This document shows, in pieces, positions 15,820 through 42,583 of a stretch of DNA of 64,000 nt. The stretch's first letter is position 1; every line of letters starts with the position of its first letter. The position numbers and the translations under genes were made by a program. Source of the DNA: Thermanaeromonas toyohensis ToBE (GTDB taxonomy: Bacteria; Bacillota; DSM-521; Neomoorellales; Neomoorellaceae); contig NZ_LT838272.1 of NCBI RefSeq assembly GCF_900176005.1, forward strand, positions 1,693,587-1,757,586, read 5' to 3'. The notes under the pieces are model-generated. The model saw nothing but the letters and a program-made list of their open reading frames with translations. It searched no databases and had not been told where the DNA came from.

Positions 15820-16479
15820 ATGGAGAAACTTTACTCCTTACACGAGGCAAGCAGGATTCTGGGGGTATGCACGAAAACGTTACAGCGCTGGGACAAAGCG
15901 GGTAAGATAAAGGTGGTCAGGACACCTGGTGGCAGGAGGAGAATTCCCGAGTCGGAGGTGAGAAGACTAACTGGGGACACGGAATTGCGCACTTCGCCCT
16001 CCCGGGTGTTAGTTATCTACGCCCGCGTGTCGTCCCATGAGCAGAAGGCGAAGGGTGACCTGGACAGGCAGGTAGAGCGGGTAAGGTCCAAATTCGACCT
16101 GAGACTGTTTGATGAGATAAAAGTAATAACTGACGTGTCGTCGGGACTGAACGACAGGCGGAAGGGCCTGATGAGGGTGATGGACCTGGCCAGGGAAGGC
16201 AAGATTACCGATGTAGCCGTCAGCTACCGGGACAGGCTGACCCGGTTCGGGTTTAACTACCTCAGGGCGTATTTTGAGAGCCACGGCGTAAAGGTGCATG
16301 TAGTAAGCGGCGAAGAAGACAGGAAGACAGCCCGACAGGAACTGGTAGAGGACCTGCTAAGTATCGTCACCAGCTTTGCGGGCAGGCTTTACGGCACAAG
16401 GAGCAAGAGGAAGGAGGAAGTAATTCAAAGGGTGAGGGAGGTGATTTCATCTGCTGGCGACATACCAGACGCGGATTGA
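15820..16479 (+). CDS. tnpA: IS607-family serine transposase
   Basis: The 219-residue protein joins an N-terminal MerR-like helix-turn-helix (YSLHEASRILGVCTKTLQRW, then TPGGRRRIPESEV) to a small serine recombinase domain. The catalytic serine lies in IYARVSSHEQKAKGDL, and the conserved arginine helix is YRDRLTRFGF. IS607 transposases move circular intermediates with little target specificity. Length and order match the family. The gene overlaps the tnpB-like gene by about 29 bases, given the CTG start proposed there. Confidence 0.92.
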   Translation: MEKLYSLHEASRILGVCTKTLQRWDKAGKIKVVRTPGGRRRIPESEVRRLTGDTELRTSPSRVLVIYARVSSHEQKAKGDLDRQVERVRSKFDLRLFDEIKVITDVSSGLNDRRKGLMRVMDLAREGKITDVAVSYRDRLTRFGFNYLRAYFESHGVKVHVVSGEEDRKTARQELVEDLLSIVTSFAGRLYGTRSKRKEEVIQRVREVISSAGDIPDAD

Positions 16480-17971
16480 AGACCAGGGCGCTTATCCCTA
16501 CTTTGAGGCCATGGGGGAACTCTTCGGCCGTTTAGAGAGGAAGCTCTACGTAGATACACACATAAGAAAAGTATCTGTTTCGGAGCTGAAGAAGCGGTAT
16601 ACGCGGAAGTACGGCATTACTGCCCGCCAGTTCAACTCCATATACAACAGCCTCTCCGGGAAATTGAAATCGGTACAGGAGAGCCTGCGCTACTTAGAGC
16701 GCGACCTGCTGGGGCGCATAGAGTCCGTCGAGCGGGCCATAAAGAGGAAGGAGAGGGAGCGCGAAAGCATTCTGAAATCCCTGGAGAAGCTGGAACCCCG
16801 GACGGAAAAGTGGCAGAAAAAGATTGACAGGCTGAAGAAGGTGAAATTCACTCTCCACCAGAAGAAGCGGCGGCTGAGGAACCTGCGGCAGAGGCTGGAG
16901 AACCTGCGGAGAGACATAGAAGAAGGGATAATCCGCCTCTGCTTTGGCTCGCGAAAGCTCTTCAAAGCCCAGCACAACCTGGGAGCCAACGGCTACCGGG
17001 ACCACGGCGAATGGCTCAAAGCTTGGCGGCAGGCGAGGTCGGGCAGTTTTCTGGTGGTGGGGTCAAAGGATGAGACGTGCGGCAACCAGACCTGCACCTA
17101 TACGAAGCGCAACACCCTGCGCATCCGGGTAGCGGATCAATTTGAGGGGCGGTTTGGGAAGTACATTGTGCTGAAGGGCGTTGCCTTCCCCTACGGCCAG
17201 GAGCACCTGGACAAAGCGAAGGAGCCCGTGCGGTTAAAGAAGGGAAAGAAGGAATACAGGGCCATAATTTACCGCTTTATGCGGCGCAAGGGCTACTGGT
17301 ACCTACATGCCACTGTGGAGAGGGACGACCCGGCTCCGGCGACCAGCCCGTGGAACGGTGCGGTGGGCATCGACCTGAACGACGGCTTCCTCCAGGTGGG
17401 CGACGTTGACCGCTTTGGGAACCCGGTGCGTGAGTTTAGACTCCCTGTCCCGATGAGGGACAGGAGCAGGGGGCAGGTGGCCGCTGCTCTGGGTGAGGCG
17501 GTGAAGAAGGCGGTGCTGTATGCGAAGGCGCAGGGTAAGCCGGTGGCGATAGAAAATCTCGACTTTGCGGCGAAGAAGCGCGCGTTAAGGGAGCTTGCTC
17601 CCCGGCAGCGGCGGGTGCTCTCGGGTCTTCTCTACAAGAAGTTCCGCTCGATGGTCGAGCCGTGTGCGGCCCGTGAGGGCGTGGGAATATTGAAGCCCGA
17701 TGGCAAGAACGTTGACCCCTTTGCCACCTCGGTTATTGGACAGTTAAAGTTCATGGCCCGGTATGGGCTGAGCCCGCACGGTGCGGCGGCGTGCGTGATA
17801 GCGCGGCGGGGTCTGGGGTTTGGCCTGGAGAGGGCGGGGAGGGCGCCTGCTTTAAGGCTTCCCGAGAGGAAGAGGACGGCGAGGAGGAGCTACTGGCAGC
17901 GGGTCTGTACCGTTCTGAAGAGAATAGACTACAGGGACCGTATAGGTCTCTTATATGCCGGCGGCTTTTAG
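16451..17971 (+). CDS. tnpB: TnpB-related protein with divergent RuvC-III motif
   Basis: About 506 residues. A long helical, arginine/lysine-rich N-terminal region with coiled-coil character precedes a RuvC-like nuclease core: GIDLNDGFLQV (first Asp) and VAIENLDFAAKK (Glu). The third motif reads LSPHGAAACVIARRGLG, with His where canonical TnpB has Asp, and no zinc-ribbon CxxC pairs precede it. These features match the group annotated as TnpB-related rather than standard TnpB. Whether it cleaves DNA with an RNA guide is unknown. The first ATG is 16511, but conserved-looking sequence (TYQTRIEDQGAYPYFEA) continues upstream to a CTG at 16451 with GGAGGTGA just before it, overlapping tnpA. Confidence 0.85.
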   Translation: MLATYQTRIEDQGAYPYFEAMGELFGRLERKLYVDTHIRKVSVSELKKRYTRKYGITARQFNSIYNSLSGKLKSVQESLRYLERDLLGRIESVERAIKRKERERESILKSLEKLEPRTEKWQKKIDRLKKVKFTLHQKKRRLRNLRQRLENLRRDIEEGIIRLCFGSRKLFKAQHNLGANGYRDHGEWLKAWRQARSGSFLVVGSKDETCGNQTCTYTKRNTLRIRVADQFEGRFGKYIVLKGVAFPYGQEHLDKAKEPVRLKKGKKEYRAIIYRFMRRKGYWYLHATVERDDPAPATSPWNGAVGIDLNDGFLQVGDVDRFGNPVREFRLPVPMRDRSRGQVAAALGEAVKKAVLYAKAQGKPVAIENLDFAAKKRALRELAPRQRRVLSGLLYKKFRSMVEPCAAREGVGILKPDGKNVDPFATSVIGQLKFMARYGLSPHGAAACVIARRGLGFGLERAGRAPALRLPERKRTARRSYWQRVCTVLKRIDYRDRIGLLYAGGF

Positions 17972-24382: not shown

Positions 24383-25627
24383 GTGGACATGACTAAGGCA
24401 GAAAAGATAAAGAACACCATTCGTGAGACAAAGGAACGGCGGAAAACTTTAGTTCCCACTGTGTGCCAGCTCAAGCTCCAGAACCTGTCCAGGAAAAAGG
24501 AAGAACTGTTAAAGCGGGCCTTCTTGGAAGCCAAATGGCTGTACAACTGGTTGGTAGCAGATTTGGGAAGGCTTGATTTGCCGACCAATGAGGTAAACGA
24601 AGTAGAAGTCAAGGTGGGAGAAGTTTTTGAGAAGAGGGAGCTCAACGTCCTCGGTTCCCAGGTCAAGCAGGAGATAGCCGACCGGCTAAAGGACAACCTG
24701 CGGGCACTGGCACGGCTGAAGGAAAGCGGCCATAGGGTGGGGAGGCTTAAATTCAAGAAGTTCGTAAACTCAATCCCTTTAAAGCAGTACGGCGTGACTT
24801 ACAGTCTGGATTTTGGCCGGAACAGGGTGAGGATACAGAAGCTGGGGGATTTTCGCGTCTTGGGGCTCCACCAGATACCTTCCGATGGGGAAATAGCGAA
24901 TGCGGTGCTGGTGTGGAAGCCGAGCGGGTACTACGTTCACGTGACCTGCTACCTTCCGGAGGAGTACTTCTGCTATCCCTACAAGCTGGGCAGGGCTGTG
25001 GGGGTGGACTCCGGTGTCAACCCCAAATTAACGCTGTCCAATGGGATAAGGATAGACTTCGAGGTGAGCGAGACGCCCAGGCTGAAGAAGCTCCAGAAGA
25101 GGCTTGCGAGGGCGGAGAAGGGCTCCAGGAACAGGGAGAAGATCCGGCGTCTTTTGAGAAGGGAATATGAAAAGCTGAACAACAGGCGGAGGGACGCGCA
25201 GAACAAGGTCCTGGCCTTTCTCAGGCTGTACGGTGTGGTGGTGTTCCAGGAGGACTGCGTGAAGGGGTGGGAAGCGCTCTTTGGCCGGCAGGTTCACTCT
25301 TCGGGGATAGGGGGACTGATGACGAGGTTGAGAGACAGCCTTGCGACCCCTGTTTCTGTGGGGAGGTTCGAACCCACCAGTCAGGAGTGCTTTGCCTGCG
25401 GGAAGAGGCACCGGCTTTCTCTGTCTGACAGGACGATTGAGTGTGATTGTGGGTGGAAGTGCGACAGGAACCTGAATGCTGCTCTAGTTATTTTGAGGAA
25501 GGGGCTTGGCCTGGGCCCTGACCGGGCCGTAGGGCTGGACCGGCCCGAACTGACGCCCCTGGAGAGGAAGGCCGCTGCGCGGATACTGGGGAGCAATCCC
25601 TATATCCGCGTAAGCTTTCTTCTGTGA
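24383..25627 (+). CDS. tnpB: TnpB RNA-guided nuclease, canonical
   Basis: A 414-residue TnpB. RuvC-like core: AVGVDSGVNPKLTLSNG (first Asp), VVFQEDCVKGWEALF (Glu), and CDRNLNAALVIL (final Asp) following a zinc ribbon ECFACGKRH...IECDCGWKCD. All catalytic and zinc residues are present, so it should be active as an omegaRNA-guided endonuclease that helps the element persist. The N-terminus binds RNA. It starts at GTG 24383 or ATG 24389. Its omegaRNA is expected to overlap the last part of the gene and run through the right hairpin into the flanking sequence, which would then serve as guide. Confidence 0.92.
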   Translation: MDMTKAEKIKNTIRETKERRKTLVPTVCQLKLQNLSRKKEELLKRAFLEAKWLYNWLVADLGRLDLPTNEVNEVEVKVGEVFEKRELNVLGSQVKQEIADRLKDNLRALARLKESGHRVGRLKFKKFVNSIPLKQYGVTYSLDFGRNRVRIQKLGDFRVLGLHQIPSDGEIANAVLVWKPSGYYVHVTCYLPEEYFCYPYKLGRAVGVDSGVNPKLTLSNGIRIDFEVSETPRLKKLQKRLARAEKGSRNREKIRRLLRREYEKLNNRRRDAQNKVLAFLRLYGVVVFQEDCVKGWEALFGRQVHSSGIGGLMTRLRDSLATPVSVGRFEPTSQECFACGKRHRLSLSDRTIECDCGWKCDRNLNAALVILRKGLGLGPDRAVGLDRPELTPLERKAAARILGSNPYIRVSFLL

Positions 25628-27287: not shown

Positions 27288-30200
27288 ATGAGCGGTGCGG
27301 AAGAGGGTTTGAAAAGGAAGCCTACCGGGAGGCGCGGAAGGCCCGACGCAGAATACCTGGAAGGTATACGCAGGCTTGCCGAAATGTTGGGTGGCCGGAA
27401 GCCGAAGGCAGAGGACTTTTACAGCCCTTTGGCTATCAAAGCCGGTGCACCGTCGATTGGGACCATTTACGCCAGATTTGGGGGCCTTGAAAAGGCGTTG
27501 GAACTTGCTGGAGTGGCAGAACTGCCCCCGGTGCGGGCCCAAGAAATAGAGGAAAGGGAGAAAAGGTTTCAGGAAGCTTTGCGGCGGTTTGAGGGCAGGC
27601 TGTACGCCTTTTTTGATGAGCTGGCAGGTTTGGGGGTAAACAGCCGCCGTTTGGCCAACGAGCTGAAGAGGCGTGGCGTTGTGGTTTTGCGCCGGCTCAA
27701 TATTCCGTATCTGGAAGAAGCCCTGGCTGTGTACTATGGAAATGATGCTGAAAGCAAAAGAGAAATGCGGGAAGTCATGGGGGAGAAGGCCTATGAAATG
27801 TTTGCGAGGTTTGCGCGCGGTGAGGTGCTCGGGTGCGTCGCACGCGATTTGGGGTACGGCAGCCGTACCGGGGCGGTTTCCCTGCTGAGGCGGAAATTCC
27901 GGCGGATGTTCCAGAAGGAGGACGGTAAGAAGAGCGAGCGGAATTACTTACTCGCTAGGCGGGACGGCAGCGGCCGGGCGCTGATAAGAATGTTGCGGCG
28001 CCAACGGGGGATGTCCCAGGTGGACCTGGCCCGCTGTGCCGGTGTCACAGCATTTACGGTGAACCGTGCGGAGCGCGGCGGCCGTGTGTCACCTCAGACT
28101 GCAGAAAAGCTAGTGCAGGCCCTTGGGGTTTCTCTTGAGGAGTGCTTCTGCCCTGCTGGCAGCGATGCATGTGAAGTAATTGCAAGCGCTAAAGGGGCGG
28201 CATGCGAGACTACAGTAAACTCAGATACCTATGAAGCAGAGGGACGACAACGGAGCAGGAGAGGCGAGGGGGAGCAGACGCGCCAGGATGAGGATATTGA
28301 AGATGTTCTGCGCAAGTTCGAAGGTCGGGCATATGTGTTTCTCGACGAACTCAGTGGACTAGGAGCAAGCACAGAGCATGTTAAAACTGAGCTTGAGCAG
28401 CGGGGGATCATTGTTTTGCGTCGGCTCAAAATCCCGTACCTGGAAGAAGCCCTTAGAGTGTATTATGGAGATGGCACAGCAGGCCGGGAGCGGATGCGAA
28501 AGTTCATGGGTGACGAGGCTTACGAGATGTTTGCATCCCTGGCTCATGGAGAGCCGTTAACTCAAATTGCCCGCAGGTTTGGCTACAAGAAGGGCGGCGT
28601 GCTGTACAGTATAGTAGGTAAGAGGCTGCAATGGTTTTTCGAAGGAAGGCGTGCTCAGAGGCAGGAGTATGTTGCCCGGCCAGATGAAGGTGGGGGCACA
28701 GCGATTCTAGCATTAAGACACCATAAGAAGATGTCGCAGGCCGAACTGGCGGAAAAAGCAGGACTATCGCTGGACGCGGTGCACCGCGCGGAGAGAGGCT
28801 TGCCTGTCACGGGCAGCACTGCGGAGCGGCTCGCTGAGGCTTTAGGGGCTTCTCTCCAGGACTGCTTCTATTCACTCCGCAGCAACACGTCCAACGTGGG
28901 TTATACCAGAGCACAGCTAATGCAGGGCATAGATAAAGACGACGTTGGCTGGGGTTTCGGACAGCCTGGAAGGTATAAGAGGAGAAAGGAGCGTCGCCTA
29001 ACTGACGAGGAATGCCTTGAGAGCATACGGAGGCTGGCCAGACTCTTGGGGAATCGCCGGCCACGGTCAAGGGACTTCAACAGCGACCTGGCGAGAGAGG
29101 CACGGGCGCCATGTTTTGCAACGATTCTGAAGCGATTTGGCACTCTGGCCCGGGCGCTGGAACTGGCAGGGGTAGCCGACCTTCCGGTGGGGAATTGTCG
29201 GGTTGTAATGCACAGGAAGAGCCTCGAGCTAGAGCAGGCAATTCAGGGATTGGCTTCCAAACCCTATGTGTTTGCAGACGAGCTGCGCAAATACGGGAGG
29301 AAGCAAAAATTAGTGAAAGAAGAACTGCGCAAGCGTGGAATAGCTGTGTTGCAGCGCATTAATGTACCTGCCATAGAGCGTATTCTTAATTTATTCTTCG
29401 GGAGTGAAGCTCAAGGACTTACCCGTAATGAAATGCGGCAGATCATGGGCGAGCGGGCGTACGAATGGTTTTCAAGGTACGCTGCGGGGGATTCCCCCAA
29501 AAAGATCGCGCTCAGCGCCGGGTGCTCCCGGCAGTGGGTGCATGATACCATAAGGCGCGGCTTAAAGCGCCTGCTTCTACGGTTACGACAGTCGGAAAAC
29601 CTATCAGGAGCCAGCAAGGCATTTAAGGCCAGCACTGGAGGTGAAAATAATATGAATATGGATGGCCTTGAGAGCATGAACATTCGCAGCGGAGTGGCAG
29701 GGCAGGGCGCGCCTGCACTCCACATAGTGGAAGAATGGGACAACTATCCGGTGAAGGGCCACTTGTGGGCAATAGGAGCCGGTGCGGGCGGGTGGTTTTT
29801 CTACCGCGGGCCGAGAAACGGGCTGCAGCTAGAAAGGCCGGAAACAGGTGTCGGGCAGTGGGAGTGGCGTTCGAGCGAAGAAGAGGCACGAATCGCCCGC
29901 GAGGAAGGTTTGAGAACGCTGAAAACCGTCGGCAACCGGCGACTGGTGCCCGGAATTGGCCGCGCTGCCATCGCTTACAACGTTCTTCGCGGTACCAATA
30001 GCCTGGCCCTTAGCATTGCTGTACCGCATGCCGGTGTCCTGGAACTGGTGCTCTTGCAGAGTGGCCCCGGGTTAAGAGATGCTCACCTGAGCCATGAGTA
30101 CCTTCAAGAACTGGCCGACAGGTCTGGCTTAGAGTTGGACAGTGTCTATTCGGATCTGGCGGCGGCAGTAGTAGAAGCTGTGGAAGAAAGCGGCTTCCCG

Positions 30201-30992
30201 CTACCCGGTGTGCTGGAATGGGAAAGGTCAGAAGACGGAGTAAGGTGGAAGGGAGATTTTGCGGGTTACTTGGGTCCGCAAGGTGCTTTGCTGGAGTTTG
30301 CAGGGCCCCTGACCAGTGTGCTTACCCTGGAAGAAGTGGCACGCTTGTGGAGGGTGCCAGCGCGGAGAGTGGCCAAGGTACTGGGGCGTGGAGAGTTTCC
30401 CGGCGGCTTCAGAAGATCCGGAGGCACATGGCTGCTCGAGTGGGATGCCGTATGGGAGGTTTTTGGCCCGCCGTTAGGGCGGAAACGTAAAGACAGCGGT
30501 GCGTACTTTAGAGTGCAGGTTGGAAGCATGGAGCTGGAGTATAAGGGGGCAGAAGAAGTCATCAGAGGTATTGCCGGGCCTGTCGTAGAAAAGGTGCTTA
30601 AAAGTGTTGCCAGCGCGGTAGGGGCCGGAAATCCTGTACAGAGCGTGCCACAGACCGCGGAGGAAGCGCGGCTTAGCGAGATCGAAGCGGTGCGGTGCGT
30701 TGCGGACCGGAAGGAATTCAGGGGTCACAGTGCTGCTTTGATTGCGCTGTATTTTATCGGGACGCCTGCCTCCCCTTCCCAGATTTTTGAGTGGATCACG
30801 GCAGCGGGGTTTCAGTGCACGATGCCCTCGGTTTATTCTTATTTGACTACCCTTAAGGGTAGGGAACTTGTCAAGAAGACCACGTCAGGGCGATATATGC
30901 TTACTGCCCGTGGCCGTGCGGAAGCTGCAGAGCTGATTCAGGATGCGGTGCGGCTGGCGCGTATTCTAAAGGGGAAAGCTCCTGCGCAATAA
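27288..30992 (+). CDS. Giant multi-HTH protein with repeated HARE-like and sigma4-like modules
   Basis: A 1234-residue protein of novel architecture. Approximate order: homing-endonuclease-associated-type repeat (23-80, LEGIRRLAEMLGGRKPKAED); module M1 (90-205, LYAFFDELAGLG to MFARFARGEVLGCVA, the latter like sigma region 4); XRE HTH (225-290, MSQVDLARCAGVTAFTVNR); module M2 (325-440); second XRE HTH (455-520); second HARE-like repeat (560-620); module M3 (635-760, WFSRYAAGDSPKKIALSAG); then a 450-residue C-terminal part with an excisionase-like HTH (TLEEVARLWRVPARRVAKVL) and a winged helix. Everything points to DNA binding; no catalytic motif is seen. GGAGGTG followed by ATG at 29652 suggests an internal start or an old gene fusion there. 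The last 92 bases overlap the convergent dnaE gene. Confidence 0.78.
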   Translation: MSGAEEGLKRKPTGRRGRPDAEYLEGIRRLAEMLGGRKPKAEDFYSPLAIKAGAPSIGTIYARFGGLEKALELAGVAELPPVRAQEIEEREKRFQEALRRFEGRLYAFFDELAGLGVNSRRLANELKRRGVVVLRRLNIPYLEEALAVYYGNDAESKREMREVMGEKAYEMFARFARGEVLGCVARDLGYGSRTGAVSLLRRKFRRMFQKEDGKKSERNYLLARRDGSGRALIRMLRRQRGMSQVDLARCAGVTAFTVNRAERGGRVSPQTAEKLVQALGVSLEECFCPAGSDACEVIASAKGAACETTVNSDTYEAEGRQRSRRGEGEQTRQDEDIEDVLRKFEGRAYVFLDELSGLGASTEHVKTELEQRGIIVLRRLKIPYLEEALRVYYGDGTAGRERMRKFMGDEAYEMFASLAHGEPLTQIARRFGYKKGGVLYSIVGKRLQWFFEGRRAQRQEYVARPDEGGGTAILALRHHKKMSQAELAEKAGLSLDAVHRAERGLPVTGSTAERLAEALGASLQDCFYSLRSNTSNVGYTRAQLMQGIDKDDVGWGFGQPGRYKRRKERRLTDEECLESIRRLARLLGNRRPRSRDFNSDLAREARAPCFATILKRFGTLARALELAGVADLPVGNCRVVMHRKSLELEQAIQGLASKPYVFADELRKYGRKQKLVKEELRKRGIAVLQRINVPAIERILNLFFGSEAQGLTRNEMRQIMGERAYEWFSRYAAGDSPKKIALSAGCSRQWVHDTIRRGLKRLLLRLRQSENLSGASKAFKASTGGENNMNMDGLESMNIRSGVAGQGAPALHIVEEWDNYPVKGHLWAIGAGAGGWFFYRGPRNGLQLERPETGVGQWEWRSSEEEARIAREEGLRTLKTVGNRRLVPGIGRAAIAYNVLRGTNSLALSIAVPHAGVLELVLLQSGPGLRDAHLSHEYLQELADRSGLELDSVYSDLAAAVVEAVEESGFPLPGVLEWERSEDGVRWKGDFAGYLGPQGALLEFAGPLTSVLTLEEVARLWRVPARRVAKVLGRGEFPGGFRRSGGTWLLEWDAVWEVFGPPLGRKRKDSGAYFRVQVGSMELEYKGAEEVIRGIAGPVVEKVLKSVASAVGAGNPVQSVPQTAEEARLSEIEAVRCVADRKEFRGHSAALIALYFIGTPASPSQIFEWITAAGFQCTMPSVYSYLTTLKGRELVKKTTSGRYMLTARGRAEAAELIQDAVRLARILKGKAPAQ

Positions 30993-33900
30993 AGGAAGTG
31001 TTTCCTCTCCTGTGCTGCACTGTGCCCACTACCTTTAGGGGGCCCAGTTCTGGCCCAAAAAGGAACTGGCCGTACTTATTATAGACGTCTTCAAACACTG
31101 TGACGTCCAGCAGCCCTGTTTCGTCTTCCAGCGAAAAGAACACAACTATTTTGCCGCTCCTGGTGGGTGGCCGGTGCGGCCTTACGGGCAGCCCGGCCAC
31201 CTTTGCGCACCTTCCGTCCGGTAACTTCTTCGCCTGGTCGGCAGTCAGATACCCCTCCTTTGCCAGTTTGTCCCTGAAAAAGCTCATGAAGTGGGCATCC
31301 GCGCTCATCCCCAGTATTTCATACTCCAAAAGGCACTTTTCTGCCGCGGTAAAGTCCTTTATGCCTGTGGGCGGCCCCAGTTCCAGGGCGGGCTGTATGG
31401 GGGACGCGGAAACCACTTCCGGCACCCAGGCCAGCAGGGCCTTCCTGTTGGGGTGGAGGGGATCGAAGGCCCCGCAGAGGATGAGGTTTTCCAGGGTGTC
31501 TCTCTCGGTCTGCGTCCTGACATAGAAGTCCCGTAGCGAGCAGAAAGGACCCTTCCGGCGCGCTTCCAGAATTCTGGCCAGCGTATTCTGCCTCATCCCC
31601 TTTACCCGGCTCAAGGGGATGCGGATGGCCGCACCCCCCTCCACGGTGAACCTGTCCGTGCTTGCGTTCACGTCCACCGGGAGGAACTTTATCCCCCTGG
31701 TGCGGGCCTCATTGGCTAGGGTTGCCGGAGAGTAGTATCCCATCGGCTGGCAGTTCAACAGTGCCGCAAAGAAATAGGCGGGATAGTGGGCGGACAGGTA
31801 GGCCGTCCAGTAGGCGGTGGTAGCGAAGGCCGCCGCATGGGCTTCGCAGAAGCCGTAGGAGGCGTATCCCTCCAGGCAGGAAAAGATATCCCGGGCGGTC
31901 TTTTCGTCGATGCCCTTTGCTACGGCCCGCCGCACGAATTCTTCCCCTATCTCCCGCATCTCTCTGAGCGAGCGCGCGTGGGTCATGAGCCTGCGCAGGC
32001 GGTCCGCCTCTCCGGGAGTGAACCCTGCAACCTCACTTGCGATGGCTATGACCTGCTCCTGGAAGAGCACCACGCCGTAGGTCTTCTCCAGAATGGGCTT
32101 AAGGGACGGGTGCAGGTAGGAGATCGGCTCCAATCCCCGGCGCCGGGCAATAAAAGGCTCCACCATGTTTCCTTTTATGGGTCCGGGACGTATGAGCGCC
32201 AGGCTGGCCACCACGTCCTCTATATTTTCGGCTTTAAGCCTGGCCTGCAGAGCCCTTTGCGCCGGGCTCTCCAACTGAAACACTCCTACCGTTTGAGCGT
32301 TGTTGAGCAACCGGTAGGTTTCAGCGTCATCCAGGGGTATGCCTTCGTAGCGGAAGCCCGGATTTACTCTGGAAATACCCCCGGCAGCCTCTTCCAGAAC
32401 GCTGAGAGCCTTCAGAGAAAGGAGGTCGAGCTTGACCAGGCCCAGCTCTTCAACGTCATTGCGGTCAAACTGGCAGATTTTTATCCCCTTAGCGGCCACC
32501 TGCAAGGGGGAAATCTCTACCACCGGGGGGCCGGTGACCACCAGGCCGCCGAGGTGGGTGCCCAGGTGGCGGGGAAAGCCCGCGATGCGGCCGCAGAACC
32601 CGAAAAGGCGGCGGTATTTCTCTTCTTTCCAGGGGCCGCAACGGAGTTCAGGGAAGCGCTCCAGAGCGTCAAAAATCTGGTCTGCTGGTATGTGGGGCAT
32701 GCTTTTGGCTAGACTGTCTATTTCTTCCTCGGAATATCCGAACACCTTACCGAGGTCCCTTACTGCGGACCGGGCCTGGTAGGTCACATACGTAGCGACT
32801 GCTGCTACGTGGTCTTCTCCGTATTTCTTATACACATAGGCGGCGATAAGGTCCCTGTAGCGGGAATCAAAGTCGATATCAATGTCGGGCTTTTCAGCGC
32901 GTTCCAGGCTCATGAAGCGCTCAAACACGAGGTGCCGGCTGATGGGGTCGACTTCCGTGAGCCCCAGGGAGTAGGCCACGGCGCTGGCCCCGGCAGAGCC
33001 GCGCCCCGCACACCGTATGCCCCGGGCACGGGCATAATTGACTATATCCCAGGTGATGAGGAAGTAGTCGGCGAAGCCCAGGCGTGATATGACGTTCAGC
33101 TCTTTTTCCAGCCTTTCTTCGACCCCCGGAGTGATGCGGCCGTAGCGTTCTGCGGCTCCCTTGTAGACCAGCTCCCGGAGAAATGCGTTGGCGCTCTGGC
33201 CGGGCGGTAAAGGAAACCTGGGGGAGAAATTTTGCCTCTCGTCGAGAGGAGGCTGGCACATTTCAACTATGCGGATAGTGTTGTGCAGGGCCTGGGGGCA
33301 GAAAGCAAAGATGCGCGCCATTTCTGCCGGTGACTTCAAGTAGTTTTCGTCGTTCAGAGGTCTTTCCGGGTGAACATCCTCCAGCTTTATGCCCAGGCGG
33401 ACGCAGGTGAGGACGTCGTGTACGGGAAAGTCCTTTCTGCAAGTATAGTGCACGTTATTTGTTGCCACGACGGGTATATTTAGAGCCTCCCCCAGTTTAA
33501 CCAACGCCTGGTTTAAAGCTTTATTCCCAGGTAGAAGAGTATCCTGGAGTTCTAGATAAAAGTTGCTGCCCCAAAGGGCTTTATAGCGCTGGGCTGCCTC
33601 TTTTGCCCTGGCATATTGCCTCCGCAGTATGAGAGAGGGTATTTCTCCCCTGCGGCAACCGGACAAAGCTATCAGACCCTGAGTATGCTCCTCCAGGTCG
33701 GCCCAAGAACACTGTGGGTTACCCCTGGGGTTTGATAGATGCGCGCGCGTAAGGAGGCGGCAAAGGTTGGCGTAGCCACGGAAACCGATAGCCAATAGGG
33801 TGAGATGATACCCACCTTCGAGGGTCACTTCTGCCCCCAGAATGGGCTTGATACCTGCCTCTTTTGCAGCGCGGTAAAACCGTACGGCGCCAGAAACATT

Positions 33901-34035
33901 GAAATGGTCCGTGAGGGCTATGGCCGGCATTTCCAGTTCTGCGGCCTTTTTAACCAGCTCCTCCGGGGAAGCCGACCCGTCGAGGAAGGAAAAATATGAA
34001 TGGACGTGGAGGTGAGCGAAGGCGGGTGCTTGCAT
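30901..34035 (-). CDS. dnaE2: Error-prone-type DNA polymerase III alpha subunit (DnaE2-like)
   Basis: The 1044-residue protein has an N-terminal PHP domain (AHLHVHSYFSFLDGSASPEE, ALTDHFNVSGAVRF), the C-family polymerase core with catalytic EKPDIDIDFDSRYRD, GRGSAGASAVAYSLG and KLDLLSLKALSVLEEA, helix-hairpin-helix motifs, and an OB domain (VVFFSLEDETGLLDV). Its length and lack of a long C-terminal tail match DnaE2/ImuC more than replicative DnaE. It follows DUF6504 and little-finger genes on the same strand, the context of translesion mutasomes, and is divergent from a LexA-like repressor, so damage induction is likely. ATG 34035 has AAGGAGGG ten bases upstream. Its 3' end overlaps the convergent 1234-residue gene. 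Confidence 0.9.
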   Translation of the reverse strand: MQAPAFAHLHVHSYFSFLDGSASPEELVKKAAELEMPAIALTDHFNVSGAVRFYRAAKEAGIKPILGAEVTLEGGYHLTLLAIGFRGYANLCRLLTRAHLSNPRGNPQCSWADLEEHTQGLIALSGCRRGEIPSLILRRQYARAKEAAQRYKALWGSNFYLELQDTLLPGNKALNQALVKLGEALNIPVVATNNVHYTCRKDFPVHDVLTCVRLGIKLEDVHPERPLNDENYLKSPAEMARIFAFCPQALHNTIRIVEMCQPPLDERQNFSPRFPLPPGQSANAFLRELVYKGAAERYGRITPGVEERLEKELNVISRLGFADYFLITWDIVNYARARGIRCAGRGSAGASAVAYSLGLTEVDPISRHLVFERFMSLERAEKPDIDIDFDSRYRDLIAAYVYKKYGEDHVAAVATYVTYQARSAVRDLGKVFGYSEEEIDSLAKSMPHIPADQIFDALERFPELRCGPWKEEKYRRLFGFCGRIAGFPRHLGTHLGGLVVTGPPVVEISPLQVAAKGIKICQFDRNDVEELGLVKLDLLSLKALSVLEEAAGGISRVNPGFRYEGIPLDDAETYRLLNNAQTVGVFQLESPAQRALQARLKAENIEDVVASLALIRPGPIKGNMVEPFIARRRGLEPISYLHPSLKPILEKTYGVVLFQEQVIAIASEVAGFTPGEADRLRRLMTHARSLREMREIGEEFVRRAVAKGIDEKTARDIFSCLEGYASYGFCEAHAAAFATTAYWTAYLSAHYPAYFFAALLNCQPMGYYSPATLANEARTRGIKFLPVDVNASTDRFTVEGGAAIRIPLSRVKGMRQNTLARILEARRKGPFCSLRDFYVRTQTERDTLENLILCGAFDPLHPNRKALLAWVPEVVSASPIQPALELGPPTGIKDFTAAEKCLLEYEILGMSADAHFMSFFRDKLAKEGYLTADQAKKLPDGRCAKVAGLPVRPHRPPTRSGKIVVFFSLEDETGLLDVTVFEDVYNKYGQFLFGPELGPLKVVGTVQHRRGNTSFIAQELSPLEYAPAAPHPESALQLPHGHGQ

Positions 34036-34056
34036 GCTTTCAGGTTCCCTCCTTGC

Positions 34057-34290
34057 TCAGTCGTACCGCCTGTAAAAGAACCAGCGACCGTCTGGAAGGT
34101 CGCGGTAAAGCTCCCACACACCGCTGTCGGTCAGGAACCTCACGAACAGCTTCGGGGTCTCTCCGTTCCACCACTCCCCCGTGTCCTTCCACCTGTCCAG
34201 GACTTCCCTCACCGTATGCCACTGCCCTTTGCAGTTAAACTGCAGGGTTTTTCCCTGTCTGCGCCAGAGAACCCGGTGCACCCGTGTCAC
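34057..34290 (-). CDS. DUF6504-like mutasome accessory protein
   Basis: A 77-residue protein rich in Trp, Tyr and Arg (VHRVLWRRQGKTLQFNC, VREVLDRWKDTGEWW, LFVRFLTDSG, WELYRDLPDGRWFFYRRYD). This pattern matches the small DUF6504-type proteins found beside imuB/dnaE2 in many bacteria, sometimes fused to the Y-family subunit. Its start overlaps the end of the upstream little-finger gene by about 55 bases, and dnaE begins 22 bases after it, so the three form one operon. Function is unknown; a bridging or regulatory role in the mutasome is inferred from gene neighbourhood. Confidence 0.75.
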   Translation of the reverse strand: MTRVHRVLWRRQGKTLQFNCKGQWHTVREVLDRWKDTGEWWNGETPKLFVRFLTDSGVWELYRDLPDGRWFFYRRYD

Positions 34291-34768
34291 GGATAGAGCT
34301 CCTCCACGGGTCGTAAAAGGAGAGCATGAGCTCCCTGCGTGAGGGGGCGAGGTCGGAAGCCCTGGTCAGGATTCCACTGTGGGCACGGGAGGCCGCGGCG
34401 ACCGCCTTGCGGAGGCGGTCCTCCCTTTCAGTGTCTTTACCGTCAAAGATGGCCAGCTGGCTCACGGGGGCCTGGCCCAACCAGTCCAGCGTTACTGAGA
34501 TTTTTTCTACGGGTGAAGCCGCTTGGATGCCGGAAATAATCCTCTGCAGGTGAAGGCAGATGTTTTCAGGCGGCTGTGCCCGGGTAAATTCGCGGGAAAC
34601 TGAGATAGGCCGCTCCTCCGTGTCCAGGCAGACGGTGATGCGCTGCCATACTAGGTTCCGTTCCTTCAGCCAGGAGGAAAGGCGCCTCGACAGGATGCGG
34701 CAGGCGTACAGAAGAGCTTCGAGAGAAGTGGCGCTCCCCAAATATATGTCGGCAGCCACGGGCTCCAT
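34235..34768 (-). CDS. Little-finger-only ImuB/Y-family polymerase-like protein
   Basis: The 177 residues correspond to the C-terminal (little finger) part of Y-family/ImuB proteins: paired strands with TVCLDTEERPISVSREF and ISVTLDWLGQ, then SQLAIFDGKD, a good match to the beta-clamp-binding motif (QLxLF), then RLRKAVAAASRAHSGILTRAS. The palm, fingers and catalytic acidic residues of a polymerase are absent. The gene is not a random truncation: ATG 34768 has GGAGGTG eight bases upstream and lies close to the promoter region. In the known ImuA'-ImuB-DnaE2 mutasome ImuB is a catalytically inactive clamp adaptor; this protein would be a minimal version. Assignment is by motif, not by search. Confidence 0.68.
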   Translation of the reverse strand: MEPVAADIYLGSATSLEALLYACRILSRRLSSWLKERNLVWQRITVCLDTEERPISVSREFTRAQPPENICLHLQRIISGIQAASPVEKISVTLDWLGQAPVSQLAIFDGKDTEREDRLRKAVAAASRAHSGILTRASDLAPSRRELMLSFYDPWRSSIRDTGAPGSLAQTGKNPAV

Positions 34769-34894
34769 GTCATAAACACCTCCGGCAGGTACGCTGGAGT
34801 AGACCGGGACGAAAAGCTCTTTTCACGAAAAGTAAACAGCAGTATAATTAGGGTAGGTGGTGTAGCCAGTTGTATGAAGCAGGAAGGCAATACC

Positions 34895-34906
34895 TAGTGT
34901 ACACTA
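34895..34906. promoter_or_regulatory. Candidate operator of the S24 repressor
   Basis: TAGTGTACACTA is a perfect 12-base palindrome in the 170-base divergent region between the repressor gene and the mutasome operon. It lies 30 bases before the repressor start, where it could control both directions. A leftward TATAAT-like element (ATTATAC on the minus strand near 34841-34848) is nearby. Confidence 0.55.
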
Positions 34907-34937
34907 TCCGTAGACAAGAGTCAAGGGGGGATATCAT

Positions 34938-35711
34938 CTGGAGAAAGACACTGGGAGCCAGGCGCTGGGCCAGTACCTGGCGGCCAGGAGGGCGGCGCGC
35001 GGTCTCACCCTGCGCAAGCTTTCAGCACTCATAGGCCGCGCTCCTTCTACCATCCAGGCCTGGGAGCAGGGCAGGCGGATGCCATCGCTGGAGGACCTGG
35101 TGGTCCTGGCCCGCGTCCTCGAGGCGGACGTGGAAAAGCTGGTGTACCTGGCTGTGCCAACTGAGAGCGATGCCCGCAGGGAACTGAAACAGGCGCAGGC
35201 AGCGGGCGGCAAGGAGGGTGAGCGGCAGGCGGTCAGGCTGCGCCAGCTCCTCGCCGCCAGGCGGGAAGCCCGGAGGCGGAAGGCTTTGGAACTGCTGAGG
35301 CCGGTACCCTCTCTGCGCCGGGTTCCCTTCGCTGGCGATGTTGCCGCGGGACCGCCGAAGCTGGCCATCGAGCAGCCCGGTGAATACACTGACGTCCTTG
35401 ATGCGGCGGTAGACTACGCCCTGGTGGTCAGAGGGGATAGTATGGTTGGGGCCGGCATAGAGGACGGTGATACCGTGTGGGTGAGGCGTGATGAGGCGGC
35501 CAAGCACGGGGACACCGTGGTGGCGCTTATTGACGGTGAGGAAATAACCGTCAAACACCTGGTGGAAGAAAACGGGCACTGGTTGCTCCGGGCCAACAAC
35601 CCGTATAAGGATTATCCGGATATACCCCTCGGGCCGCGAGACGAGATTATCGGGGTGGTGAAATGGGTAGTTAAAGCGCCCGGCCCCCCGCCGGTACGGC
35701 CGGTGAAATGA
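34938..35711 (+). CDS. LexA/CI-like self-cleaving repressor (XRE HTH + S24 peptidase)
   Basis: The N-terminal XRE helix-turn-helix (LTLRKLSALIGRAPSTIQAW) is followed by an Arg/Ala-rich linker and an S24 peptidase domain. The latter has a cleavage-type AG in VPFAGDVAAG, the catalytic Ser in VRGDSMVGAGIEDGD and the Lys in GEEITVKHL. Such repressors cleave themselves when bound by RecA filaments, releasing SOS genes. An ATG at 35079 would delete most of the HTH. The frame is open to a CTG at 34938 with AGGGGGG seven bases upstream, so a rare CTG start (257 residues) is proposed. It is divergent from the little-finger/DUF6504/dnaE operon and probably regulates it. Confidence 0.82.
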   Translation: MEKDTGSQALGQYLAARRAARGLTLRKLSALIGRAPSTIQAWEQGRRMPSLEDLVVLARVLEADVEKLVYLAVPTESDARRELKQAQAAGGKEGERQAVRLRQLLAARREARRRKALELLRPVPSLRRVPFAGDVAAGPPKLAIEQPGEYTDVLDAAVDYALVVRGDSMVGAGIEDGDTVWVRRDEAAKHGDTVVALIDGEEITVKHLVEENGHWLLRANNPYKDYPDIPLGPRDEIIGVVKWVVKAPGPPPVRPVK

Positions 35712-36910: not shown

Positions 36911-36962
36911 AAATTCGTGCTGAATAACCGGAAATTGCCGGTTATGGGTGAGGACGCGGACT

Positions 36963-37628
36963 ATGGAAAAGAGAGCAAGAGGCTGGACGAAAGAAGAATG
37001 TGTGGCTGCTCTAAAAAGGCTTTCGGCCGCACTTAGCGGGTGTCGCCCCACAACCAGCGACTTGGTGGGTAGAGTGGGTCGAGAGGTGGGGTGTCCTCCG
37101 GAGTGGGTGATACATGAACTGTTCGGTTCCTGGAAGGTAGCGATCAGGGAAGCGGGTCTCGAAAGTCTGCCGACGGTAAGGGAGCAGGCGCGGCAGGCAG
37201 CGGTAGAAGAGCTTCGTTTGTACTTTGATAGGGTGTTGGAAGGAAAATCCTTCCTGTTTCGTGGCGAAGCACATGAGATTGTAAAAAAAGCGCCCGGGAA
37301 GCTTTATGTACAGAGCAAACGGCGGATGCTGAGAGGAGCGTGCCGGGAAAAAGGGATACGCTTGCTGAACCTGCCCTATGACCGGGATATTCGCGCTGTG
37401 GTGTCGTGGCTGCTGGGATGCCCTGCGGAAGGGGTCCTGCCCGAGAAAGAGAAGGTGGAGGAGGCCCTGGGTGAGGCTGCGCTACGGGTACTGAGAAGGA
37501 TTATGGAGGTCGGGAACTTAAAGGCTGCAGCGCAGGCGGAGGGCTTGAAGGTTTTTCAGGCCCGGCGCATGCTCGTAGAGGCGTGCAGGAGGGCAGTAAG
37601 GTTCCTGGCACGGACTCGGCATGGGTAA
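36963..37628 (+). CDS. HARE-like repeat plus sigma4-like module protein (intact)
   Basis: A 221-residue member of the local family. Residues 9-65 form the homing-endonuclease-associated-type repeat (AALKRLSAALSGCRP to LFGSWKVAIREAGLE, in variants shared with the 1234-residue protein). Residues 80-215 form the module domain (KSFLFRGEAHEIVKK, then REKGIRLLNLPYDRD, then ALGEAALRVLRRIMEVGNLK, then an HTH-like end). It lacks the XRE domains. A sequence-specific DNA-binding role is inferred. ATG 36963 is chosen with GTGAGG upstream. It sits between DUF72/helicase remnants and the intact helicase; its closest relative is the disrupted gene at 40098. Confidence 0.7.
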   Translation: MEKRARGWTKEECVAALKRLSAALSGCRPTTSDLVGRVGREVGCPPEWVIHELFGSWKVAIREAGLESLPTVREQARQAAVEELRLYFDRVLEGKSFLFRGEAHEIVKKAPGKLYVQSKRRMLRGACREKGIRLLNLPYDRDIRAVVSWLLGCPAEGVLPEKEKVEEALGEAALRVLRRIMEVGNLKAAAQAEGLKVFQARRMLVEACRRAVRFLARTRHG

Positions 37629-41020: not shown

Positions 41021-42583
41021 ATGATGGTCTTAGTCCAGAACAAAGACGGCAGTCCTTTATCACCATGCCACCCTGCGAGGGCGAGGATAATGCTCAAGAA
41101 GGGCAAGGCCAAGGTAGTATGCACGTATCCGTTTACCATCAAGCTAACCTACAAGGTAGAAAACCCCGTGTTTGCTCCTACCAGGGCAGTATTGGATGAC
41201 GGCAAGACGTGCGGCCTGGGCGTGGTACAGGAGAACAGGACCCACAACCTGGCCCTGTGCAAGGCTGAGATGGAGACCCGCGGGGAGGAGATAAGCGACA
41301 ACCTTAAGAGGCGGAAGGAGCTGCGGGCGCAGAGGCGGAGGCGGCGGAACAAAAAGCGCGGCCGGGAAGGCAGGATCAAGATAAGGTACCGGAAGGGGCA
41401 GGAGTACCCACAGAGCATTGTAGCGGACGTCCAGGCCAAAGTGAATGCCGTAAAACGCTTGATGAAGATGTACCCCATTACCGAAATTGTCCTGGAGCCG
41501 GTGAAGCTGGACATAGTAAAAGAACTCAACCCGGGTGTCAGGGGCAAAGATTACCAGCGCGGGCTTTCTTATGGCATTGAGGCGGACACCCGGAACCAGA
41601 AGCGGCGGTTGGCGATATTGAGGAGGGACGGCTACAGGTGCTTATACTGCGGGAGGGAAGTGACCGAAGAGACGGCCAGGATACACCACTTTGTGCAGCG
41701 CAAGCACGGGGGCACCAAACGCTACGACATACTGGGGACCCTGTGCGAGGAGTGCCACACGTCGGTGTCCACCGGTGAACTGGCCCTGGCATTTGACCTG
41801 GAGAGCTATCCCAACATTCGTGCGGCGGGGCGGTGCATGCACGGGCGGCATCTCCTGGAGAGGGAGCTGAGGAAGCTCGGGGTGCCTGTTGTAGTGAAGT
41901 ACGGGTATGAGGCGCAGAAGTTACGGGAGAGGTACGGGTTCCCGAAGTCTCACGGGAACGACGCTGTGGTTCTGGGGTGCAACCCTGAGAAGGGGTTAAT
42001 TGACCGGTCTACCGTGTATAAGGTTAAGCTCCACGCCCGGCATGGCGGGAGGAAGCTATTTGATGCCAATCCGGGGGTAGCGGCGTACCGGGGGCAGGCG
42101 GACCGTCAGCCGCATGTAGACTGGGCCAGGATGGTGGTAGACGACCACAATCACGAATGGAACCGGAAGAACCGCAGCTACAGGAGGCACGTGAGGAACA
42201 AGTACTACAAGAAGCTGAAGGAGGAGGGGAAGTTCAACTACGACCTTCTGCCCGGGAGAAAGCACCTTAACGAGATATTCACCGTGAACCGGGCCATGCT
42301 TTTGACGGAGGGCGGTCCGGTGCTGGTGAAGAACCAGCGGATCAGGGAGTGGAGGTACCCGCACCCGTGGCCTGATAGGAGGAGGGTGATAGAGCGGTAC
42401 GACCTGGTGCGGACGCAGAAGGGGGGCGTTGGCATCGTCACGTCTATTATGAGCGACTGCACGGTGAGGGTTGATTTTGTAAAGAAGCGCGAGGGGTACA
42501 AGACGGACTTTAGTTTTTACAGGCCGGAGGCTCTGGAGATTATCCAGAAGGGAAGTAGTCAGACGTGGGTGATACAGGAGTAG
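41021..42583 (+). CDS. iscB: IscB RNA-guided HNH/RuvC nuclease
   Basis: A 520-residue IscB, the family from which Cas9 arose. N-terminal PLMP-type domain: [20 protein letters not shown]. Ruv[16 protein letters not shown], with one residue fewer than the usual DPGSK loop. An Arg-rich bridge helix follows ([14 protein letters not shown]). Ruv[19 protein letters not shown] domain: [14 protein letters not shown]...[11 protein letters not shown]...CEECH, with both CxxC pairs. Ruv[16 protein letters not shown] long C-terminal domain would recognise the target-adjacent motif. All catalytic residues appear present, so RNA-guided double-strand cleavage is likely. ATG 41021 follows GGGGGTG. Confidence 0.92.

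Follow-up and report, generated by a model that had tools for sequence, protein, structure and literature searches.

A candidate minimal translesion module with a little-finger-only adaptor and a divergent S24-type repressor in Thermanaeromonas toyohensis

The closest described relatives of the locus reported here are the iPolY / ImuB-C / DnaE2 modules (DnaE2X; Kyrpidia tusciae type), in which separate ImuB-C and DnaE2 genes share an operon with a Y-family-derived first gene encoding a clamp motif and a tail, imuA is absent from the operon, and RecA has been proposed as the ImuA substitute (PMC6511836, PMC12926913). Standalone ImuB-C proteins were described in 2013 (PMC3765255), and the most reduced ImuB on record keeps the little finger and the thumb (PMC12926913). 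Error-prone polymerases under S24 repressors other than LexA are known from Streptococcaceae, Moraxellaceae and Bacteroidetes (PMC8565304), and FddR of Francisella belongs to a self-contained, divergently transcribed unit (PMC13148647).

We analysed a 64,000-nucleotide stretch (the window) of the 3.33-Mb, single-contig genome of T. toyohensis ToBE (G000), in which four genes form a cassette: a repressor gene on the plus strand, divergent from minus-strand genes for a little-finger protein (LF), DUF6504 and DnaE2 (Table 1). A first-pass annotation of the sequence had proposed this arrangement of three minus-strand reading frames beside a repressor, and the arrangement is real; its choice of ImuA-ImuB-DnaE2 as the parent system gave way to the iPolY / ImuB-C / DnaE2 module, exactly the set found in relatives of the same phylum. 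The locus is probably a minimal translesion (mutasome) module descended from the iPolY / ImuB-C / DnaE2 type, in which LF and ImuB-C would serve clamp loading and the S24 protein would act as the switch.

Compared with the iPolY modules, whose operon organisation it shares, the cassette has a Y-family part without palm, fingers or thumb, and an attached XRE-S24 repressor. The ImuA-ImuB-DnaE2 systems of Mycobacterium and Pseudomonas likewise possess a little finger/clamp part, ImuB-C, a second DnaE and an SOS-type repressor, whereas here ImuB is split in two and reduced, ImuB-C is not fused, the Y-family core is gone, and the cassette DnaE falls outside the DnaE2A clade, in a clade separate from ImuA/ImuB-linked DnaE2; inspection of the window cassette and of all five LF-only loci found no imuA. 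DnaE2 systems with a small ImuB-C partner only (Arthrobacter type, PMC12926913; Rubrobacter tropicus plasmid) lack a little-finger adaptor, unlike the cassette, and the Rubrobacter system has a repressor nearby, as here: on that plasmid (L217, 3606-8342) lexA is divergent from the genes for an ImuB-C protein of 147 aa and for DnaE2, a similar layout that has no adaptor. The repressor shares with HdiR (Streptococcaceae, PMC8565304) and FddR (PMC13148647) a phage-type HTH joined to an S24 domain, hosts that are LexA-less or LexA-diverged, and, as predicted from its operator sites, autoregulation, with HdiR also controlling an error-prone polymerase and FddR divergent genes; it differs from both in its lineage and its two face-to-face promoters, and from FddR in having a CAC-N5-GTG operator core rather than GTG-N11-CAC.

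Table 1. Coordinates of the cassette genes and of sequence features within and between them (positions in the window)
Feature	Position	Strand	Description or basis
DnaE2-type C-family polymerase	30901..34035	-	1044 aa, PHP to OB fold, without C-terminal tau-binding part
DUF6504, standalone ImuB-C domain	34057..34290	-	77 aa; start overlaps LF gene
LF, candidate little-finger-only adaptor	34235..34768	-	177 aa: Y-family little finger, clamp motif and C-terminal tail
LF C-terminal tail RRELMLSFYDPWR, residues 144-156	34301..34339	-	alignment with relatives
RecA-N-terminus-like helix and turn, LF residues 115-140	34349..34426	-	weak; profile score
Clamp-binding motif QLAIF, LF residues 104-108	34445..34459	-	QL[AS]xF in 5/5 LF-only proteins; QxxLF-like in most relatives
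Ribosome site GGAGGTG of LF gene	34777..34783	-	sequence
O2, operator-like site TTTTCAC-GAAAA-GTAAACA on -35 of PR	34820..34838	.	comparison of genomes
PR, repressor promoter TTTTCA-N17-TATAAT	34820..34848	+	same layout in G017, G293, G395
PL, cassette promoter TTGACT-N17-TACACT, facing PR	34896..34924	-	comparison of genomes
O1, minus-strand TGTCTAC-GGATA-GTGTACA in spacer and -10 of PL	34898..34916	.	putative operator
XRE-type HTH and S24 autopeptidase-like repressor	34938..35711	+	257 aa from CTG start

The sole Pfam match of LF is to PF11799 (IMS_C, Y-family little finger) and is weak (E=0.049), and its orthologue in G293 matches the same model at E=2e-9 with 38 bits (curated cut-off 20.7). 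The predicted secondary structure, strand-helix-strand-strand-helix-strand, follows the little-finger order. Structure prediction, as proposed in the first-pass annotation, returned a poor AlphaFold model (pLDDT 44), yet its first 44 Foldseek matches are all Y-family polymerases; the PDB matches include 1unn_C, the E. coli Pol IV little finger on the beta clamp, and at E-values of about 1e-3 to 1e-2 they support the predicted fold short of proving it. No palm, fingers or thumb is left in LF, no polymerase core was found within the window or upstream of LF, and a genome-wide PF00817 profile search, which degenerate iPolY cores can escape, found no Y-family core. The little finger is followed by the clamp motif, which along with the gene's own ribosome site had been recognised earlier, then by the RecA-N-terminus-like helix and finally by a tail whose motif RRExxLxxxDPxR is invariant across 19 relatives. 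The profile score of the helix was reached by 1 of 100 column shuffles, and the helix is degenerate in G000. Comparison with the sister genome (dN 0.16, dS 0.80; dN/dS about 0.2) indicates purifying selection on the LF gene. No relatives of LF were found in plasmids or phages.

The match of DUF6504 to PF20114 (E=5e-4) narrowly misses the cut-off of the model. When 18 cassette DUF6504 proteins were combined into a profile, it aligned with the extreme C-termini of a Manganitrophus ImuB (hmmsearch E=1e-6) and a Kitasatospora ImuB (E=1e-4), and hhalign against mostly proteobacterial ImuB tails gives E=2e-5 over a WW...WF pattern, all E-values having been computed against very small target sets. 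Judged by these profile matches, DUF6504 is the ImuB C-terminal domain encoded as a separate gene, in agreement with the description of standalone ImuB-C proteins (PMC3765255). ImuB has thus shrunk, as the first-pass annotation had it, and is also split, with DUF6504 as its ImuB-C part, instead of having been replaced. The overlap of the LF and DUF6504 reading frames suggests coupled production. The cassette DnaE2 is complete, with intact polymerase aspartates in the motifs PDIDIDF and KLDLL, and lacks the DnaE1 C-terminus; DnaE2s of the LF-only clade carry a QxxLxL of their own at the position corresponding to the clamp motif of DnaE1. The genome additionally encodes DnaE1 and a PolC-like protein. 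Since no Y-family core is detected by PF00817, the cassette DnaE2 is probably the main translesion enzyme of this organism.

Searching an LF profile against 398 genomes of the phylum revealed two kinds of match. The LF-only kind, with frames of 182-196 codons, occurs in five genomes (G000, G016, G017, G293, G395) from two families of the window's order. The other kind was found in roughly 50 genomes from other families, where the match usually ends a frame of 350-450 codons, and most of those loci whose surroundings were read have a long protein at the corresponding position, ahead of DUF6504 and DnaE. These longer relatives mostly fall below the PF00817 cut-off and most lack the fingers; two retain the whole polymerase region with changed catalytic positions. 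Together they form a graded series from an inactive polymerase of about 430 aa with fingers, through proteins of about 350-370 aa without fingers, to the little finger only. The cassette arrangement is complete in G017, G293 and G395 and partial in G016, where the contig ends inside the cassette; the LF-only operon is intact wherever the contig covers it. G395 also carries a separate gene with a good PF00817 match.

A DnaE phylogeny, likewise suggested by the first-pass annotation, grouped the DnaE2s of the five LF-only loci together (100/100), nested within the iPolY-cassette clade (95/99), which stands apart from the genome's own DnaE1 and from ImuA/ImuB-linked DnaE2. By this tree the cassette DnaE is orthologous to the iPolY-cassette DnaEs. 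Because the LF-only DnaE2s form a single clade inside the iPolY-cassette clade, the loss of the Y-family core is old rather than recent. The earlier reading of LF as something other than a recent truncation is borne out by the LF-only form in two families and by the dN/dS ratio, on which grounds a recent deletion or pseudogene was rejected. Full-length proteins in the same slot, which that annotation had named as a counterargument if coupled to a recent deletion here, do occur elsewhere in the phylum, in families other than these two. Those proteins have themselves lost activity, however, and the reduction to LF dates far back. A split gene with the missing core elsewhere was likewise rejected, with no such core in the window and none genome-wide by PF00817, a model that degenerate iPolY cores can escape.

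The repressor frame opens at CTG 34938 behind AAGGGGGG; its presence and divergent orientation had been noted correctly, but the start assigned to it, ATG 35079, lies downstream of the HTH. It matches PF13560 (E=7e-13) and PF00717 (E=4e-24), and comparison with LexA shows conservation of A137-G138, S168 and K206, so that the Ser/Lys pair and the Ala-Gly cleavage site are intact as previously stated. The LexA winged helix (PF01726) is absent from the cassette repressor and an XRE-type HTH takes its place. A phage origin was considered and rejected, as phage proteins match the peptidase half only (34-43% identity) and none was found in viral contigs.

The intergenic region contains a conserved pair of facing sigma-A-type promoters. 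In G000, G017, G293 and G395, PL reads TTGAC[TG]-N17-TA[CA]A[CA]T with a 7-5-7 palindrome, TKTNCAC-N5-GTGTAMA, between its -35 and -10; O1 has no mismatches in G017, G293 and G395 and one in G000, where its left half (TGTCTAC) is poor. This PL-operator composite occurs at 0-1 mismatches only at the cassette in each genome, and elsewhere never at better than 2. The promoter facing it toward the repressor reads TTTnCA-N17-TATAAT, and the second operator-like site, deviating from the consensus by 1-3 positions, starts at its -35 in 4/4 genomes. Two promoters were observed in the region against 0.1 expected, and the layout of PL, PR and operators is conserved in all four genomes having the region. 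Judging from the promoter positions, the two transcripts should have about 25-70 bases in common. A similar facing arrangement is found in promoters of P2-like phages. Sequence conservation points to an operator in both the repressor's own and the target promoter, a feature of S24 switches, and supports the earlier proposal that the cassette carries a self-contained switch. The O1-O2 centre distances are 78, 78, 110 and 68 bp (window 34820-34916; L050 6112-6208; L033 6149-6277; L034 1681-1767), and spacings that differ by nearly whole helical turns give only a hint of cooperation. A perfect palindrome, TAGTGTACACTA, was discarded as the operator: it overlaps the -10 and O1, it is not the motif common to the relatives, and its sole other exact copy in the genome sits within a cas1-like gene. 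A genome-wide regulon is unsupported, with operator site counts at most about twice those of a reversed-pattern control.

Profile searches found no canonical LexA (PF01726 with a matching peptidase part) in any of the five LF-only genomes; elsewhere in the order 15 of 17 genomes carry a LexA-type match, and one further genome, G015, has PF01726 above the cut-off. The association of LexA absence with the LF-only cassette gives a Fisher p of 0.0008, a value not corrected for shared ancestry. The single marginal PF01726 match in G000 lies in a frame of 380 aa whose product looks kinase-like and is not a LexA, and the other S24-like protein of this genome (1395796) is without the catalytic serine context. 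G336, a relative of G293, encodes the C-terminal 101 residues of the repressor at 67% identity (L129/L171, C9 about 16580-16882) with no cassette, a probable remnant of a switch lost by decay.

We posit that LF would dock onto the sliding clamp through QLAIF and the little finger while its RRExxLxxxDPxR tail holds ImuB-C, and that ImuB-C, by analogy with published ImuB models, would bind the PHP domain of DnaE2, which could thereby reach the clamp without a dead-polymerase core or thumb. The helix between the clamp motif and the tail may contact RecA, although the signal is weak. The S24 repressor, acting at one operator per promoter at the sites identified by genome comparison, would silence both the cassette and itself until RecA filaments on damaged DNA lift the repression by provoking self-cleavage at Ala137-Gly138; it would thus replace LexA in controlling the error-prone polymerase of this lineage.

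Two points weigh against the adaptor role: in published models the ImuB thumb touches DnaE2 too and LF has no thumb, and DnaE2 might not need an LF adaptor because of its own QxxLxL motif. LF could instead be a clamp competitor or brake which on damage displaces the replicative polymerases while DnaE2 and ImuB-C use the internal motif of DnaE2. A little finger with a clamp motif suffices for clamp binding (1unn is such a complex), the retained QxxLxL fits a competitor, DnaE2 systems linked to ImuB-C alone are published (PMC12926913), and in R. tropicus the ImuB-C protein directly precedes DnaE2 beside lexA. We nevertheless regard this as unlikely: a simple competitor would not need the invariant tail, which is common to full-length iPolY, and the frame overlap of LF with DUF6504, suggestive of coupled production, speaks against it. 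That the LF gene is a decaying iPolY remnant with little or no function is highly improbable; the graded loss among relatives fits decay, but the occurrence of LF in two families, its own ribosome site, its dN/dS of about 0.2, its invariant motifs and the intact operons disfavour it.

The PHP metal-site residues of the cassette DnaE are largely as in its own DnaE1, unlike Rhodanobacter DnaE2A, so the enzyme could proofread and the cassette could be a repair polymerase set of little mutagenic effect; or the S24 protein could sense another stress such as heat or redox, some LexA-like repressors being known to work outside damage control (PMC7101444). Both variants appear quite improbable, given that S24 proteins beside error-prone polymerases are mostly damage-controlled (PMC8565304) and that the cleavage residues of the repressor are intact.

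If clamp loading by LF and ImuB-C is correct, a 177-aa protein stands in for a dead polymerase of 350-500 aa and reveals the indispensable part of ImuB-like proteins for loading DnaE2 onto the clamp. The locus would offer a compact system from a thermophile for studying a type of complex that has no experimental structure (per PMC12926913), and a further lineage in which LexA loss accompanies the capture of a mutagenic cassette by a phage-type repressor. This kind of cassette is already published; what is apparently new, as far as we searched, is an adaptor reduced to LF, together with its co-occurrence with the loss of LexA, and the locus would unite an iPolY-type module and an S24 switch in a new, smaller form. 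Our literature search, which covered the main texts of PMC6511836 and PMC12926913, returned no report of an LF-only adaptor. Such proteins should escape core-based surveys because queries were trimmed to the conserved polymerase region (PMC12926913).

A second complete RecA is encoded outside the window (G000:C1:2172763-2173815; L169:764-1816, minus strand), 64% identical to the recA product at window 54818; the other genes of its operon are uncharacterised. Upstream of it are two sites, TGTTCACCCTTAGTGAACA and CGTTCACTTATGGTGTACA, that resemble the cassette operator. The sister genome G016 has this RecA (83% identical) but no operator-like sites, G017 and G293 have a single RecA, and three genomes of genus g5 have a second RecA at 67-68% identity; a link between repressor and second recA is thus only a lead. 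A wider reading, in which the Y-family scaffold is dispensable, with LF, its tail and a separate ImuB-C loading DnaE2 in LexA-less bacteria, and in which the Thermanaeromonas repressor also controls the second RecA as a possible dedicated RecA/ImuA-like partner, is distinctly unlikely as a whole. On a Thermomicrobium roseum plasmid (L201, 1715-7180), an operon encodes a divergent RecA-like protein, a protein of 416 aa that joins a Y-family little finger to a long C-terminal part, and a DnaE2 41.5% identical to the cassette DnaE, possibly a related mutasome with its own RecA.

The neighbourhood of the cassette contains several further genes. A plus-strand gene (27288-30992) encodes a 1234-aa protein of repeated homing-endonuclease-associated (HNH_repeat) and XRE/sigma-like HTH modules, and its frame and the DnaE gene on the opposite strand overlap by 92 bases, at the 3' end of the latter; a shorter relative of this protein lies at 36948-37628. 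Farther out on the plus strand are an RRXRR and HNH protein of IscB-like architecture by Pfam (41021-42583), a TnpB-like gene (24383-25627; OrfB_IS605 and Cas12f1-like domains by Pfam), and, by reading only, a resolvase-like gene with a possible TnpB-like gene after it (15820-17971).
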